Below are positions 992 through 6,035 of a stretch of 64,000 nucleotides of DNA, in pieces. Position numbers and translations under genes: made by a program. Position 1 is the first letter of the stretch. Each line of letters starts with the position of its first letter. Below the pieces are notes generated by a model, which saw only the letters and a list, made by a program, of their open reading frames with translations, ran no database searches and was not told where the DNA came from. Source of the stretch: Akkermansiaceae bacterium (lineage in GTDB: Bacteria > Verrucomicrobiota > Verrucomicrobiia > Verrucomicrobiales > Akkermansiaceae); NCBI GenBank assembly GCA_903908495.1, contig CAIVSK010000002.1, forward strand, positions 1 through 64,000, read 5' to 3'.

Positions 992-2992
992 ATGTCTATC
1001 AACTACCTGCACCCGGCATTGCTTGGCTTGCTCGCGCTTGCCGGGCTGCCCGTGCTGGTGCATTTGTTGTCGCGAGCCCGGCCGCCGGTCTATCGATTTT
1101 CCAACACCGAGTTCCTGCGCCGCGTGCTGCGCAGCACCGCCCGCATCCGCCGACCCAAGGATTGGCTGCTGCTTGCCCTGCGCAGCCTCGCCCTGTTCGC
1201 GCTGGCCGCCGCGTTTGCCTGGCCGGTTGTCACGTCCAACTCCGCCTCCCTGCCCGGCGAAAAATCCACCGTCATCCTGCTGGTCGACCGCTCCGCCTCG
1301 ATGGCCGCCCGCGAAGGTGCCGGCAGCCGGTTTGATTCCGCCTGCGCCCAAGCGACCCGCTTCCTCGATCAATCCAAGCCCGACAACGCCAACCTCATCT
1401 GGATCGACGCCGAACCCGACGCCGTCTTCCCGGAACCCGGGCCCAACCTGACGTTTCTAACGGATTTACTGAAACAAACCCAGCCCAAGCCGGAAGCCGG
1501 TGCTCAATCCGCCGCCTTCGATCTGGCGCTGCGCCAACTCGCCAAGGTCGGCGGCCACCGCGAACTGGTCATCATTTCCGACTTCCAAGCGACCGCCTGG
1601 CGTGACTTTGCACCGCAGCTTCCATCCAACATCGTCGTCCGCACCCAGCGCGTCGCCACCGCCAGCCCGCCCAACGTCGCCGTCAGCCGCCTCATTCCAC
1701 AACCGGCCGAACCCGTCGCCGGCCAGGACCTGACCCTGCTCACCCGCATCCAAAATTTTTCCGCTGAGGCGGTCCGCACCCAGCTCACGCTTGATGCCGA
1801 TGGGGCGCGCCAATCGCAGGCCATCGACCTACCGGCATGGGGCGAGGCGGAATCCGCGTTTGTCATCCGCCCCGCCAACCCCGGGCCGATGGCCATCAGT
1901 GCGTCCATCGAGGCCGACGGCTTCCCCGCCGATGACGCCCATTTCACCGTCGTCCAAGTCCGCGATTCGCTGCGCCTCGCGCTCACCGCCGCGCCCGACT
2001 CGGCCGATGGCAGGATTCTCGCCAAACTCGCCACCTCGCTCAAATGGTTGGAGATGGCCACCGACCCGAAAAATGTCAGAGCGGCGGATTTTCACTTCAT
2101 TTCCGCTTGGTCCGGCGCGGCACCCGCGGATCTGCGCAAGTCCGCACAGGCCGGCACCACCCTCATCGTGCGGCCCGCGGCGGCCTGCCCGCTGGCGGCC
2201 ATCCGCGACCTCCTGAAGCTTCCGGCCGATCCGCTCGACGGCCCGCTCGCACTGGACGCCTCACCCGCCGGCTGGGCAGCCATCCCCGACGAGACCCATC
2301 CCGCCAACCAACTTTTCCGCTCCGGGGATTTCGGCAACCCGTTCGCCGGCAATTTCCGCGAACGCGTCCACCTGCCCGCCGCCCTCGCGTCGCTGCCGGG
2401 CATCCGCCCGATCGCCACCTACACCGACGGCATCCCGGCCCTGCTCGAAGGCCCGACCGCCAACGCCTCCATCCTGCTGTGGAACCTCCCGCTCGACCCC
2501 GCCAAAACCGACTGGCCCACCCAAGGCTCGTTCCTGCCCGCCATCGCCGAAGTCCTCCTCCGCACCCGGCCGCGCAACACCACCGAGCCCGCCTACTCAC
2601 TCCCCGGCAGCCTGCTCAGCTGGTCATCGAACGATCCCGCCCACGCCGGCGCCGTCACCCTGCTCGGACCAAGCTCCGAACCGCTGGCCCTCACCGAGTC
2701 CACCACCGCCAATGGCTCCCAGTGGCAATCCAAGGCCACCGCCGTCCCCGGCATTTACCGCTGGCAAATTTCCGGCCAGCCCATCGCCTTCACCGCCGTC
2801 AACTTTCCCGATTCCGAGAGCGACCTCCGCCCGCTCGAGACCACCCCCAGCTTTGGCAAGCTCGATGCCTCCAACGACTCCCTCGTCCGCCAAGCCGCCC
2901 TCGCCCAGGGCCTCCCGCTCTGGCCCTGGCTCGCCCTGGCAGGCATTCTCTTTCTCGTCCTCGAATCCCTAATCCACTCCCGAGCCCGCTAG
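992..2992 (+). CDS. BatA/VWA domain membrane protein
   Basis: This 666-residue protein has the typical BatA N-terminus: a double membrane region at about residues 6-27 and 58-80 separated by a basic loop with a PPVYRFSNTEFL-type motif. A VWA domain follows with the MIDAS motif DRSAS at residues 99-103. A long periplasmic beta-rich part comes next, and a C-terminal membrane segment at about 640-660. In aerotolerance (Bat) and MoxR operons such proteins are thought to form a membrane complex with DUF58 and MoxR proteins. It lies 20 bp after the DUF58 gene. Its paralogue in this window is 28374-30491, with the same length class and layout. The function of the complex in this organism is unknown. 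Confidence 0.9.
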   Translation: MSINYLHPALLGLLALAGLPVLVHLLSRARPPVYRFSNTEFLRRVLRSTARIRRPKDWLLLALRSLALFALAAAFAWPVVTSNSASLPGEKSTVILLVDRSASMAAREGAGSRFDSACAQATRFLDQSKPDNANLIWIDAEPDAVFPEPGPNLTFLTDLLKQTQPKPEAGAQSAAFDLALRQLAKVGGHRELVIISDFQATAWRDFAPQLPSNIVVRTQRVATASPPNVAVSRLIPQPAEPVAGQDLTLLTRIQNFSAEAVRTQLTLDADGARQSQAIDLPAWGEAESAFVIRPANPGPMAISASIEADGFPADDAHFTVVQVRDSLRLALTAAPDSADGRILAKLATSLKWLEMATDPKNVRAADFHFISAWSGAAPADLRKSAQAGTTLIVRPAAACPLAAIRDLLKLPADPLDGPLALDASPAGWAAIPDETHPANQLFRSGDFGNPFAGNFRERVHLPAALASLPGIRPIATYTDGIPALLEGPTANASILLWNLPLDPAKTDWPTQGSFLPAIAEVLLRTRPRNTTEPAYSLPGSLLSWSSNDPAHAGAVTLLGPSSEPLALTESTTANGSQWQSKATAVPGIYRWQISGQPIAFTAVNFPDSESDLRPLETTPSFGKLDASNDSLVRQAALAQGLPLWPWLALAGILFLVLESLIHSRAR

Positions 2993-2993
2993 A

Positions 2994-3136
2994 GACACAA
3001 GACTGCAAGACACAAGACGCAAGACAAGAAATCGCGATTCCTATTCTGTATCTTCCAGCCCCCCAATCTTCCTACCAATATTCTTCCTGCCCAAATCTGA
3101 TTTCCATAATCTGAAATCCTAAATCTGAAATTCAAG
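2994..3136. repeat. two blocks of heptad repeats around a CT-rich spacer
   Basis: After the stop of the BatA gene, units of the type GACACAA run from 2994 to 3029, one of them 8 bp long. A CT-rich stretch with a repeated TCTTCCT word follows. Six further 7-bp units cover 3095-3136 (ATCTGAT, TTCCATA, ATCTGAA, ATCCTAA, ATCTGAA, ATTCAAG) and end exactly at the ATG of the next gene. No promoter or ribosome binding site is evident. Confidence 0.7.
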
Positions 3137-3757
3137 ATGCCCGCCAAGAAAGCACAAGCCGCCAAGCCGAAACCCGCCGACCCCGGGGCCTTGCTTGCGC
3201 CCGCGATGCTGGCCCCGCTCGTCCGCTACTTCCGCCACGAAAAGGTCATTCTCGACTCCGATCTGGCGGAGCTATACAGCGTCTCAACCAAACGACTGAA
3301 CGAGGCGGTGAAGCGCAACCTGGACCGATTTCCTGACGACTTCATGTTCCAACTCACTGAAAATGAGGTGGAAATCTTGATATCACAAATTGCGATATCA
3401 AATTCCGGCCAATCCTCTTTAAGGTCGCAATCTGCGACCTTAAAGCGCGGGCAGCACCGCAAGTACCTCCCCTACGCATTCACCGAGCAAGGAGTCGCCA
3501 TGCTCTCCAGCGTGCTGCGCTCGCCCCGCGCCGTGGCGGTGAACATTGCCATCATGCGCACCTTCGTCCAACTCCGGCGTTTGATGGATTCCAACGCCCT
3601 GCTCGCCGAAAAAATCGAAGCCCTCGAAGAAAAACACGCCGAACACGACCAGCACTTCCAAATCGTCTTCGATGCCATCAAGCAGCTCATTGCCACGCCG
3701 TCGGCACCGACCAAGGAACTCGGTTTTCACACCATCCCGTCCACCCGCACCCCCTAA
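3137..3757 (+). CDS. ORF6N domain DNA-binding protein
   Basis: This 206-residue protein carries an ORF6N domain, a DNA-binding module related to KilA-N that occurs in phage and mobile-element proteins and many bacterial chromosomes. The domain starts near residue 30 (VILDSDLAELYSVSTKRLNE). The conserved YLPYAFTEQGVAMLSSVL block lies just after residue 110, and a coiled-coil-like tail follows at about 150-180. The variable stretch between the two conserved blocks (about 81-103) is encoded by two perfect or near-perfect palindromes and reads as two versions of the pattern L-x-S-Q-x-A. The gene sits between the BatA-like and VWA-like genes of a module that has no such gene in its second copy, so it looks inserted. 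Its target and role are unknown. Confidence 0.88.
   Translation: MPAKKAQAAKPKPADPGALLAPAMLAPLVRYFRHEKVILDSDLAELYSVSTKRLNEAVKRNLDRFPDDFMFQLTENEVEILISQIAISNSGQSSLRSQSATLKRGQHRKYLPYAFTEQGVAMLSSVLRSPRAVAVNIAIMRTFVQLRRLMDSNALLAEKIEALEEKHAEHDQHFQIVFDAIKQLIATPSAPTKELGFHTIPSTRTP
3377..3401. repeat. palindrome 1 inside the ORF6N coding sequence
   Basis: The left arm is 3377-3388 and the right arm 3390-3401, 12 bp each with one mismatch (3385 against 3393), around a single centre base at 3389. In frame it encodes residues 81-88, L-I-S-Q-I-A-I-S. Its centre is 42 bp, exactly 14 codons, from the centre of the next palindrome. Confidence 0.9.
3417..3445. repeat. palindrome 2 inside the ORF6N coding sequence
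   Basis: The arms are 3417-3429 and 3433-3445, 13 bp each without mismatch, around a 3-base centre. It encodes S-L-R-S-Q-S-A-T-L-K (residues 94-103). The core around the CAA codon resembles palindrome 1, but the outer arms differ from it while remaining self-complementary. Confidence 0.93.
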
Positions 3758-3761
3758 TAGC

Positions 3762-3809
3762 CGACCACCGACCACCGACCACCGACAACCGACAACCGCC
3801 CCCCCCCCC
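3762..3809. repeat. heptad repeats and C11 tract
   Basis: Three CGACCAC and two CGACAAC units occupy 3762-3796. A run of eleven C (3799-3809) follows and touches the TTG at 3810. There is no Shine-Dalgarno sequence. The layout repeats that at 65-98. Confidence 0.8.
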
Positions 3810-6035
3810 TTGCACCCGCCCTTTCCACTTCCCGTTCTCATCCCCCTCGCCATCCTGGCGTTGGGCATCGCCGCGTTCGGCGCGTGGCGGGGTTCGTCGG
3901 GCATCAGCCGGGGCTTGCGCTGGCTGCTCCTGTCCTTGCGGCTGCTCGCCATCGCCGCCGCCCTCGCCCTCTTGTTCAATCCGGGAAAATGGGCCTATCC
4001 CACCGAATCCCACCCCAGCCCGTGGATCATCCTCGACGACGTCTCCGCGTCGATGGCCCAGACCACCGCCGACGGCTCCTCCCGCGCTGCCGTGGCCACC
4101 TCGCTCGTGCGCCAAGCCACCGCCCACGCCAAATCGGCCGACCTCCCGCTGCGCGTTCACTCCTTCGCCGCCAAGCTCGACGTTGCCTCCAGCGCCGCGC
4201 CACCGCCGCCTGACGGCACCGCCTCCAACATCCTCCCCGCCGTTTCCCAAATCCTCCAGGACGCCGCCGCCGCCGGCGAAACCCTGGCCGGCATCATCGT
4301 CCTCAGCGACGGCCGCCAAACCCTCAATTCATCGCCCGCCGACTTCGACGCCCTCGGCCTGCGCGCCCGCAGCCGCAACACCGCCGTACACACCGTTGCC
4401 ATCGGCACCGACTCCCCGCCACCCGACCTCGCCCTCATCCAACCCCGCGCCTCCATCACCGCCTTCGCCGGCCAACCGCTGCGCATCGGCTTCGCCCTCA
4501 AGTCCACCGGCCTCGACCCGCTCCGCCCCGTCGTCACCTTGCGCGATGCCGCCGGCATGTCCCTCACCAGCCTCACCCTCGAGGTGCCTCCCGGCAAGAC
4601 CGTCGCCGCCACCTTTGAGATCAAAGCCCCGCCCACCTCCGCCCACTGGACCCTCGATACCCCCGTAATCACCGGCGAAGTCCGCTCGTCTAACAACCAC
4701 GCGGCCCTCAATATCCGCATTCTCGAATCCAAAACCCGCGTGTTCCTCGTCGAGGGCGCTCCCTATTGGGATAGCAAGTTCCTCGCCCAACTCCTCCGCC
4801 AACAACCCCACATGGACGTCCACTCCGTCCACCGCCTGTCCGATGAACGCTACTTCCGCATCGATTCCGGCGACACCAAGAACCAAGAAACCAACCAACC
4901 GGTATTTCCCAACACGCTCGACGAACTCGCCCGCTACGACCTGATTGTTTTCGGCAAAAACATCGACCCGTTCCTCACCCCGGAGCGGGCCGAGATTTTG
5001 CGCAGCTATGTTCGTGAGCGCGGCGGAGCGGTGTTATTTTCGCGCGGCAAGGCATCGACAGCGTCGCTGGCCGCGCTGGAACCGTTGGAACCAGTGGTCT
5101 GGGGCAGCGCCACCACCGCGGATTTCCGCTTCACCCCGACCCGCGACGGCGAGGCCGCCGGGCTCTTCGGCCAGGCGCTGCCCGCCCCCGACGCATCGCT
5201 GTGGGCCGCGCTGCCGACGCTGCGGGATGGCCGCCAAATCGCCATGGTCAAGCCATTCACCCGCGTCCTCGCCGAGGGCATCCCCGAGCATGGGGCAGGA
5301 TCGGGCACCCCGGGAAAATTCCCGCTGCTGATGGTCCGCCGCTATGGCCAGGGCGTCACCGGCTTGGTCAATGGTGACGGGCTGTGGAAATGGGACTTTT
5401 TTCCCGAAGCGCGGGAGCTGGGGAATTGTTACGAGGATTTCTGGACCCAATTGATTCAATGGATGGCGTCCTACTCGGAGTTTCTCCCCGGCCAGGATTT
5501 TTCGCTGAGGCTGCCCGCCACTCGCGGTGAGCTGGGCACGACCCTCGCCGCCACCCTCTCGTATCGCGGTGCCGATCCCGCCCCGCAACCGCTCATCCTC
5601 ATCACGTCCCCTGCCGGCACCACCACCAAAATCAACCCCGCCGCCATCCCGGACCCCTCCGGCCGCCCGCTCTGGCGCGCCTCGTTCACTCCCGACCAAC
5701 CCGGCCTCTGGACCCTCAAGCTCAGCGACCCGCGACCCGACGCCCCGCCCACTCCCGAAGTTCTCTTCAGCGTCCCCAACCCGCCCCAGGAATCCGACGA
5801 CCTCTCGCCCGATCCCGGCTTGCTCGAGGCCCTCGCACAAGCCACCGGCGGCCAGGCGCTCCAGCCCGCCGCCTTCACCACCCTCCTCCGCAGCCAACTC
5901 GTCAAGCACCCGCCCGCCACCCGTGAGGCCGGTGCCATCTGGGCTCCCTCCTGGGACTTCACCCTCGTCGCCCTGGCCATCGCCGCCCTCTTCGCCATCG
6001 AGTGGTTCCTCCGCCGCCGCCACGGACTTTCTTGA
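3810..6035 (+). CDS. VWA domain membrane protein of the MoxR module
   Basis: This protein of about 741 residues has two N-terminal membrane segments (about 9-25 and 37-56). A VWA-like domain with the MIDAS pattern D77-V-S-A-S81 follows. Next comes a glutamine-amidotransferase-like region (starting near VFLVEGAPYWDSKF) of the kind often seen in these large VWA proteins. A C-terminal membrane helix precedes a basic tail. TTG 3810 is chosen as start because the frame upstream overlaps the ORF6N gene and is low-complexity, and because the codons after it (Leu/Met-His-Pro/Arg) and the preceding C run mirror the start at 99. If translation instead began upstream, the C11 run would lie inside the coding sequence. 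The paralogue is 25937-28372. It probably forms a membrane complex with the BatA-like protein. Confidence 0.85.
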   Translation: MHPPFPLPVLIPLAILALGIAAFGAWRGSSGISRGLRWLLLSLRLLAIAAALALLFNPGKWAYPTESHPSPWIILDDVSASMAQTTADGSSRAAVATSLVRQATAHAKSADLPLRVHSFAAKLDVASSAAPPPPDGTASNILPAVSQILQDAAAAGETLAGIIVLSDGRQTLNSSPADFDALGLRARSRNTAVHTVAIGTDSPPPDLALIQPRASITAFAGQPLRIGFALKSTGLDPLRPVVTLRDAAGMSLTSLTLEVPPGKTVAATFEIKAPPTSAHWTLDTPVITGEVRSSNNHAALNIRILESKTRVFLVEGAPYWDSKFLAQLLRQQPHMDVHSVHRLSDERYFRIDSGDTKNQETNQPVFPNTLDELARYDLIVFGKNIDPFLTPERAEILRSYVRERGGAVLFSRGKASTASLAALEPLEPVVWGSATTADFRFTPTRDGEAAGLFGQALPAPDASLWAALPTLRDGRQIAMVKPFTRVLAEGIPEHGAGSGTPGKFPLLMVRRYGQGVTGLVNGDGLWKWDFFPEARELGNCYEDFWTQLIQWMASYSEFLPGQDFSLRLPATRGELGTTLAATLSYRGADPAPQPLILITSPAGTTTKINPAAIPDPSGRPLWRASFTPDQPGLWTLKLSDPRPDAPPTPEVLFSVPNPPQESDDLSPDPGLLEALAQATGGQALQPAAFTTLLRSQLVKHPPATREAGAIWAPSWDFTLVALAIAALFAIEWFLRRRHGLS

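Follow-up and report, generated by a model that had tools for sequence, protein, structure and literature searches.

Why would a protein-coding gene keep two self-complementary stretches of DNA inside its translated sequence, and what keeps their arms matched? The question is raised by an ORF6N-domain gene in the window, as we call the whole stretch of 64,000 nucleotides of an Akkermansiaceae contig that was analyzed. The first-pass annotation had placed two palindromes between the conserved ORF6N blocks, with centres 42 bp apart, and this description proved correct in each detail that was checked (centres at 3389 and 3431). The locus contains the following features.

992..2992, forward strand: upstream neighbour, a gene for a large membrane protein in a cluster of vWA type, with orthologues in L004 and L299
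3137..3757, forward strand: ORF6N-domain gene (206 aa; Pfam ORF6N, E 2.5e-33); AlphaFold2 predicts a flexible N-terminus, then a winged helix-turn-helix-like domain, a long C-terminal helix and a GFHTI tail
3287..3316, forward strand: predicted recognition helix TKRLNEAVKR, codons 51-60 (AlphaFold2 helix 51-60, after helix 40-46)
3290-3292 and 3302-3304, forward strand: predicted specificity residues K52 and E56 (columns p1-20 and p1-16, co-varying with palindrome positions 7/8 and 4/5, respectively)
3377..3468, forward strand: flexible loop housing both palindromes, codons 81 to about 110 (pLDDT 53-70 vs 93-97 in the flanking domain)
3377-3401, no strand: palindrome 1, TTGATATCACAA-A-TTGCGATATCAA, i.e. 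TTGATATCACAAATTGCGATATCAA, with 12-nt arms (sequence and repeat search)
3417-3445, no strand: palindrome 2, CTTTAAGGTCGCA-ATC-TGCGACCTTAAAG, i.e. CTTTAAGGTCGCAATCTGCGACCTTAAAG, with perfect 13-nt arms (sequence and repeat search)
3802..6035, forward strand: downstream neighbour, which directly adjoins the upstream neighbour in L299 (no ORF6N gene)

The gene of the window and its locus

The window protein falls clearly within PF10543 (ORF6N), with 114.6 bits vs a curated profile cut-off of 27.8. It also matches the PADLOC profile PDC-S05 (E 1.6e-55, residues 25-183), a candidate single-gene defence system for which we found no experimental support, and a PHROG anti-repressor profile (E 1.4e-23); viral proteins appeared among the fold matches too. 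An NCBIfam search gave no match, a sequence search for relatives of solved structure gave no convincing one, and we detected no nuclease domain. The AlphaFold2 model, built from an input alignment of 41 sequences, had a mean pLDDT of 85.8, with helices at 40-46, 51-60, 75-88 and 130-185, i.e., helix-turn-helix helices plus a C-terminal helix of 55 residues. Comparison of this model by VIA-align retrieved Bro-like Orf22, Ski/Dachshund, plasmid partition proteins (Par-centromere among them), RacA-DNA, MerR-promoter and Mbp1, all with Z of 6.5 or less, and a Foldseek search against the PDB gave no match at E 0.001 or better. Such middling values for DNA-binding winged helices support the assignment of the protein to this class, but the fold alone does not prove it. 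In the model the loop sits at the position expected for the wing, and the part of the protein encoded by a palindrome may contact that same palindrome. Many other ORF6N proteins (L109, L113, L114, L119, L120, L267) have a different C-terminal domain (FFDGQVFDAY...ILLIDNYVDESVL) in place of the coiled tail.

Both palindromes encode L-x-S-Q-x-A, as had been noticed: LISQIA within LISQIAIS in palindrome 1, and LRSQSA within LRSQSATLK in palindrome 2. Palindrome 1 has a single mismatch (A3385 vs C3393), and this is also the sole difference between its two cores, TCAC on the left (the Gln type, see below) and TCGC on the right (the Glu type). The core of palindrome 2 is TCGC, as expected with Glu56. 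Folding as single-stranded DNA gave -4.4 kcal/mol for palindrome 1 (z -3.6) and -13.2 kcal/mol for palindrome 2 (z -8.9). In the genome of 6.2 Mb, palindrome 2 was the sole match to GGTCRCANNNTGYGACC with one mismatch or less. The pattern of palindrome 1 (three mismatches or less) was found only at its site in the window and in an ORF6N pseudogene on contig C56. This second copy (L002, G000:C56:12760-13050) has two TAG codons and imperfect palindromes.

We have compared the locus with two relatives. In L299, from the same genus, the ORF6N gene is absent and the two flanking genes are adjacent, leaving an empty site at about 1330-1433. In L004, the same-locus orthologue, both flanks are 82–83% identical to the window. 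There Gln goes with TCAC, whereas the window has Glu56 with TCGC (palindrome 2). Besides, palindrome 1 has changed from ATATC/GATAT in the window to AGGTC/GACCT in L004, a compensatory change at two adjacent pairs, 3381/3397 and 3382/3396. The ORF6N gene comes and goes between genomes. A genome can carry up to 12 copies, most of them solitary chromosomal genes beside ordinary genes. Low-complexity, tandem-like stretches (caagacacaagacgcaagac, aaatctgaaatc, ccgaccaccgacc) flank the gene of the window on both sides (2993-3136 and 3758-3810); they are absent from the empty site, a short gap that has a different, GGATCCGAC-type inverted repeat.

Loop palindromes across the ORF6N family

ORF6N loci were gathered from a scan of genome contigs, viral contigs, whole genomes and named plasmids, many of the sequences being metagenome assemblies. 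The contig scan was seeded with the window protein, so this first set leans to its relatives, whereas the Pfam-based sets do not. The scan reached Verrucomicrobiota, Planctomycetota, Omnitrophota, Nitrospirota, Elusimicrobiota, Desulfobacterota, Proteobacteria, Bacteroidota, Myxococcota, Chloroflexota, Patescibacteria and others; the genes sampled span well over a dozen phyla of bacteria, plus one archaeon (a Woesearchaeote). Nearly every locus had a palindrome in the loop. At least one with a score of at least 7 was present in 234 of 245 genes, and most of the other 11 look like decayed versions. The usual number was one per loop (209/245) and two were found in 25/245, which does not amount to an iteron array. 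Over 209 distinct genes the median score in the loop was 12, compared to a mean of 4.5 for synonymous recodings of the same peptide and 4.5 for stretches of the same length elsewhere in the same genes. Scores of at least 9 were reached by 93% of the loops vs 0.33% of the control stretches. Chance is excluded as the source of the palindromes, in the window and in the family, and the loop palindrome is real and general across ORF6N genes. What had been described as a trait of one gene is indeed there, but it characterizes the whole family.

One way to explain such a pattern would be as a mere by-product of a conserved peptide, since LRSQxxT is common in frame A. The probability that we give to this is practically nil. 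In 188 of the 209 genes the loop was more palindromic than all 100 synonymous recodings, and about 16 genes have the palindrome in another reading frame (frame B), where it encodes another peptide (e.g., ...VTNCDRF... for ...LRSQIVT...). Recoding and frame-B genes together refute the idea. Actually, T6, C3 and A2 of the palindrome are conserved in frame A and frame B alike.

A hairpin in the mRNA, acting for example in translational autoregulation or programmed pausing, would fit the strong self-complementarity inside the transcript and the 3-nt loops. However, G.U pairs are almost absent: over 1980 pair cells at positions 2-11 we counted 8 G.U mismatches, 27 A.C and 35 of other classes, and on this scarcity a structured RNA element was rejected. 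An Rfam scan found no family at gathering score, only a chance match to mir-753 (E 0.6), and an RNA hairpin leaves the code of the DNA-binding helix described below unexplained, so that we regard it as very improbable. With G.U no commoner than other mismatches and the palindrome kept in a second frame, the comparison argues for a DNA element. The alignments show it as a two-fold symmetric element of 25–29 bp at the DNA level.

We have also considered a nomadic element that carries the palindrome into genes, as the Rickettsia palindromic elements do, a possibility close to the earlier suggestion of an element inserted in hairpin form. The palindromes are indeed coding and in frame, and some loops (the 25 above) have two. 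Yet near-perfect AGGTNNCANNNTGNNACCT palindromes, searched for in 30 genomes and in the AGG class only, were located in ORF6N genes, in their upstream regions or in remnants, and three that seemed to stand alone (L097, L098 and L246) proved to be ORF6N remnants. Insertion of the Rickettsia type in many unrelated genes was not what these 30 genomes contained for the AGG class. The palindrome occupies the same site of one family across phyla, with no variety of targets. These data did not support the suggestion of an inserting element, and we give mobility of this kind as little credit as an RNA hairpin.

Arm pairing and the recognition-helix code

We aligned 198 palindromes at their centre and examined the pairing of the columns. 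Position 4 was A-T in 97, C-G in 48, G-C in 48 and T-A in 2, i.e., Watson-Crick in 195 of 198 against 73 expected if the columns were independent. All variable positions from 4 to 13 paired above expectation, and past position 13 symmetry was sharply lost. In the closest pairs of genes (101, non-overlapping; both these sister pairs and the tree used below are approximate) there were 232 changes in the left arm and 237 in the right one, 203 of them joint vs 49.5 expected, and pairing was kept in 188 of these 203. Covariation of arm with arm beyond what the protein requires, which the first-pass annotation had proposed to look for, was therefore found across homologues. Their arms differ while each palindrome remains self-complementary, and we saw neither non-palindromic loops with the motif kept nor palindromes that were identical throughout.

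Joint change is also what templated copying would give. Under this explanation a polymerase switches template between the arms of a hairpin, so that the palindrome maintains itself and alters the protein, with no binding function involved. There is a precedent in coding genes of yeast, where template switching homogenises the arms of inverted repeats and inverts their spacers (PMC8604942), and the ORF6N spacers do occur as reverse-complement pairs (AAT 77 and ATT 52, AAA 25 and TTT 14). However, close pairs with the same arms showed no excess of spacer inversion (0.228 vs 0.204). It was dropped as a proof of template switching, reverse-complement spacers being equally frequent in random pairs. 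Nor does copying predict the abrupt loss of symmetry beyond position 13, the confinement to ORF6N genes, the bases T6, C3 and A2 kept in both frames, or the relationship with two residues of the protein that we describe now.

This relationship was not built in; it emerged when every column of the protein outside the loop was scanned, and it is a result of comparison only. In the 101 sister pairs, residue 56 was associated with palindrome position 4 (Fisher, p 2e-20) and with position 5 (p 2e-9). In 95 of these pairs base 4 and residue 56 change or stay together, and the joint change of residue 56 and core had a p of about 1e-19. The next best pair was residue 52 with position 7 (p 7e-13), residue 52 being associated with position 8 as well (p 2e-5); position 4 is also tracked by residue 53. 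The correspondence can be read as a short code. When residue 56 is Gln the core is TCAC in 118/128; it is TCGC in 56/61 with Glu, TTCC in 21/24 with Lys and, with Arg, mostly TGCC (21/38). For residue 52, Lys goes with G7 (152/156) and other residues with A7 (83/100). Taking residues 52 and 56 together, K and Q go with GGTCAC in 62/79, K and K with GGTTCC in 9/9, and I and E with TATCGC in 6/6. On a tree calculated with the helix columns left out, the residue changed 71 times and the core 71 times, and these events reduce to 74 joint changes. The half-site thus varies in concert with two residues of the predicted recognition helix, 52 and 56, whose codons lie outside the palindrome, 70–140 bp upstream of it. 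Positions 9-13 are symmetric with no obvious partner residue. The frame-B genes follow the same code (Q-A 9/9, E-G 4/4, p 0.0014) although their loops encode other residues, which excludes a contact between loop and helix within the protein as the cause. In the major groove, Gln classically prefers A, and both Arg and Lys prefer G.

Selection to keep a symmetric site, bound by the putatively dimeric product of the gene itself, accounts better than copying of a hairpin for a code with helix residues, together with T6, C3 and A2 kept in two frames. We consider copying as the whole explanation improbable. The part of the suggestion that stands is the joint change of the arms, behind which template switching is a possible mutational route, while the code and the bases kept in both frames lie outside what it predicts. 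In our opinion it is highly probable, judging from the comparison of homologues, that the palindromes are binding sites of the ORF6N protein itself, placed within the codons of the flexible loop of its own DNA-binding domain. Residues of the protein co-vary with its own site, as they should in a dimeric winged-helix autoregulator.

The putative mechanism would be as follows. Two copies of the protein would pair through the long C-terminal helix, and this homodimer would bind the palindrome, with helix positions 2 and 6 reading base pairs 7/8 and 4/5 in either half-site. A change of residue 56 (e.g., Glu to Gln) would require both arms to change jointly (at position 4, from G-C to A-T), and the joint change would force amino acid changes in the loop. 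Binding inside the gene, and just upstream in about a tenth of genes, might then block transcription, a step that is less certain, and each paralogue would probably regulate its own copy. Lock and key would lie in one short stretch, so that a solitary mobile gene could keep its specificity upon transfer or duplication. More tentatively, and with somewhat less than even confidence, we propose that the wing-like loop encoded by the palindrome touches the palindrome, so that specificity and target make one linked, transferable unit with a short code that restricts each paralogue to itself. Half-sites were not shared within one genome (14 palindromes, 0.523 within vs 0.521 between). Against binding to the own site counts the fact that the two palindromes of one gene may differ, as in the half Gln-type palindrome 1 of the window.

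Sites outside the loop and related systems

Palindromes are also found in front of the genes. Among the 245 genes there were 29 upstream palindromes, about 22 of the family type, most of which lie 15–80 nt ahead of the start. In the set before widening, the upstream rate was about ten times background (19 in 61 kb vs 12 in 368 kb). These sites speak in part against the reading as own binding sites. The residue 56 of the gene fits the upstream core in about 12/22 (a manual tally), and the upstream arms are no closer to the loop of their own gene than to other loops (0.708 vs 0.690, p 0.20). The other upstream sites may be targets of paralogues. Genes of the Lys56 and Arg56 types nearly always have upstream palindromes with the TCAC or TCGC core of the other types (L029, L086, L099, L100, L201, L278), a pattern that suggests cross-regulation between paralogues. 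The exception is that of Butyrivibrio (L272), with identical arms 15 nt before the ATG and in the loop.

Binding inside the own gene is known from certain proteins. The initiator O of phage lambda binds, through its N-terminal half, sites within its own coding sequence (PMC4488673), and RepC of repABC plasmids binds an origin located within its own gene (PMC2783167). By analogy, the self-binding site could be an origin or a centromere-like element, with ORF6N proteins serving the replication, partition or maintenance of small replicons. The fold resembles DNA-binding winged helices such as RacA and pSK1 Par, and two Segatella plasmids of 2.9–4.1 kb carry only Rep and ORF6N as annotated genes. 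Nevertheless, most copies are solitary and chromosomal, beside ordinary genes and up to 12 per genome, and they usually have one palindrome without an iteron array. Our estimate for a role of this kind is as low as the one for hairpin copying.

As a proposed binding site of its own product, the ORF6N palindrome shares with the sites of lambda O the intragenic location. However, lambda O initiates replication and its sites are four iterons of 19 bp, while ORF6N genes have one or two palindromes of 25–29 bp, a two-residue code, a distribution over many phyla and no known role in replication. RepC is a plasmid initiator with a role unrelated to ORF6N. I-TevI represses itself, and the DNA that it binds overlaps its reading frame in the 5' part (PMC3943268), but it is a nuclease with a separate homing site, and the window protein has no detected nuclease domain. 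Inverted repeats are also kept inside translated genes in the mitochondria of Nematomorpha (PMC6649704). Like the Rickettsia elements, these are located in several genes and have no protein partner, whereas the ORF6N palindrome belongs to one family, at one place, with a matching recognition helix. ORF6N is a relative of the Bro-N, KilA-N and phage antirepressor regulators, for which no intragenic palindrome was described in the papers found; ORF6N genes of the present type were present in 5 of 50,697 phage records. In the literature, covered through open-licence papers only, we found no description of the ORF6N palindrome or of a recognition-helix code for Bro-N/KilA-N, an absence that is weak evidence of novelty.

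These results give a function-level handle on a large and nearly unstudied family that figures among the defence candidates and whose only annotation is 'ORF6N domain-containing'. Since each gene holds both site and protein, its sequence alone yields a natural protein-DNA pair, and the hundreds of such pairs provide a recognition code for winged-helix proteins of this family. They would also represent a clean case for the study of joint specificity change of a transcription factor and its operator. The translated loop shows, besides, how selection at the DNA level overrides the protein sequence.

Some further arrangements were observed. Three tandem ORF6N genes are located on a plasmid of Parabacteroides distasonis (L273, 286-2019), and tandem pairs were found in G301, G294, G290 and G303. 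In L110 (1501-1521) there is an intergenic palindrome of the family type, GAGGTCACAAATTGTGACCTC, with no ORF6N block found nearby. The same palindrome occurs in two large viral contigs without an ORF6N block (L258, 725-749; L264, 10794-10818), and that of L258, located between genes and followed by a run of T, looks like an intrinsic terminator. Finally, the Segatella copri plasmids (4.1 and 2.9 kb, with only Rep and the ORF6N gene annotated) have palindromes (L270, 923-949; L271, 783-803) with AA...TT at the centre in place of CA...TG.
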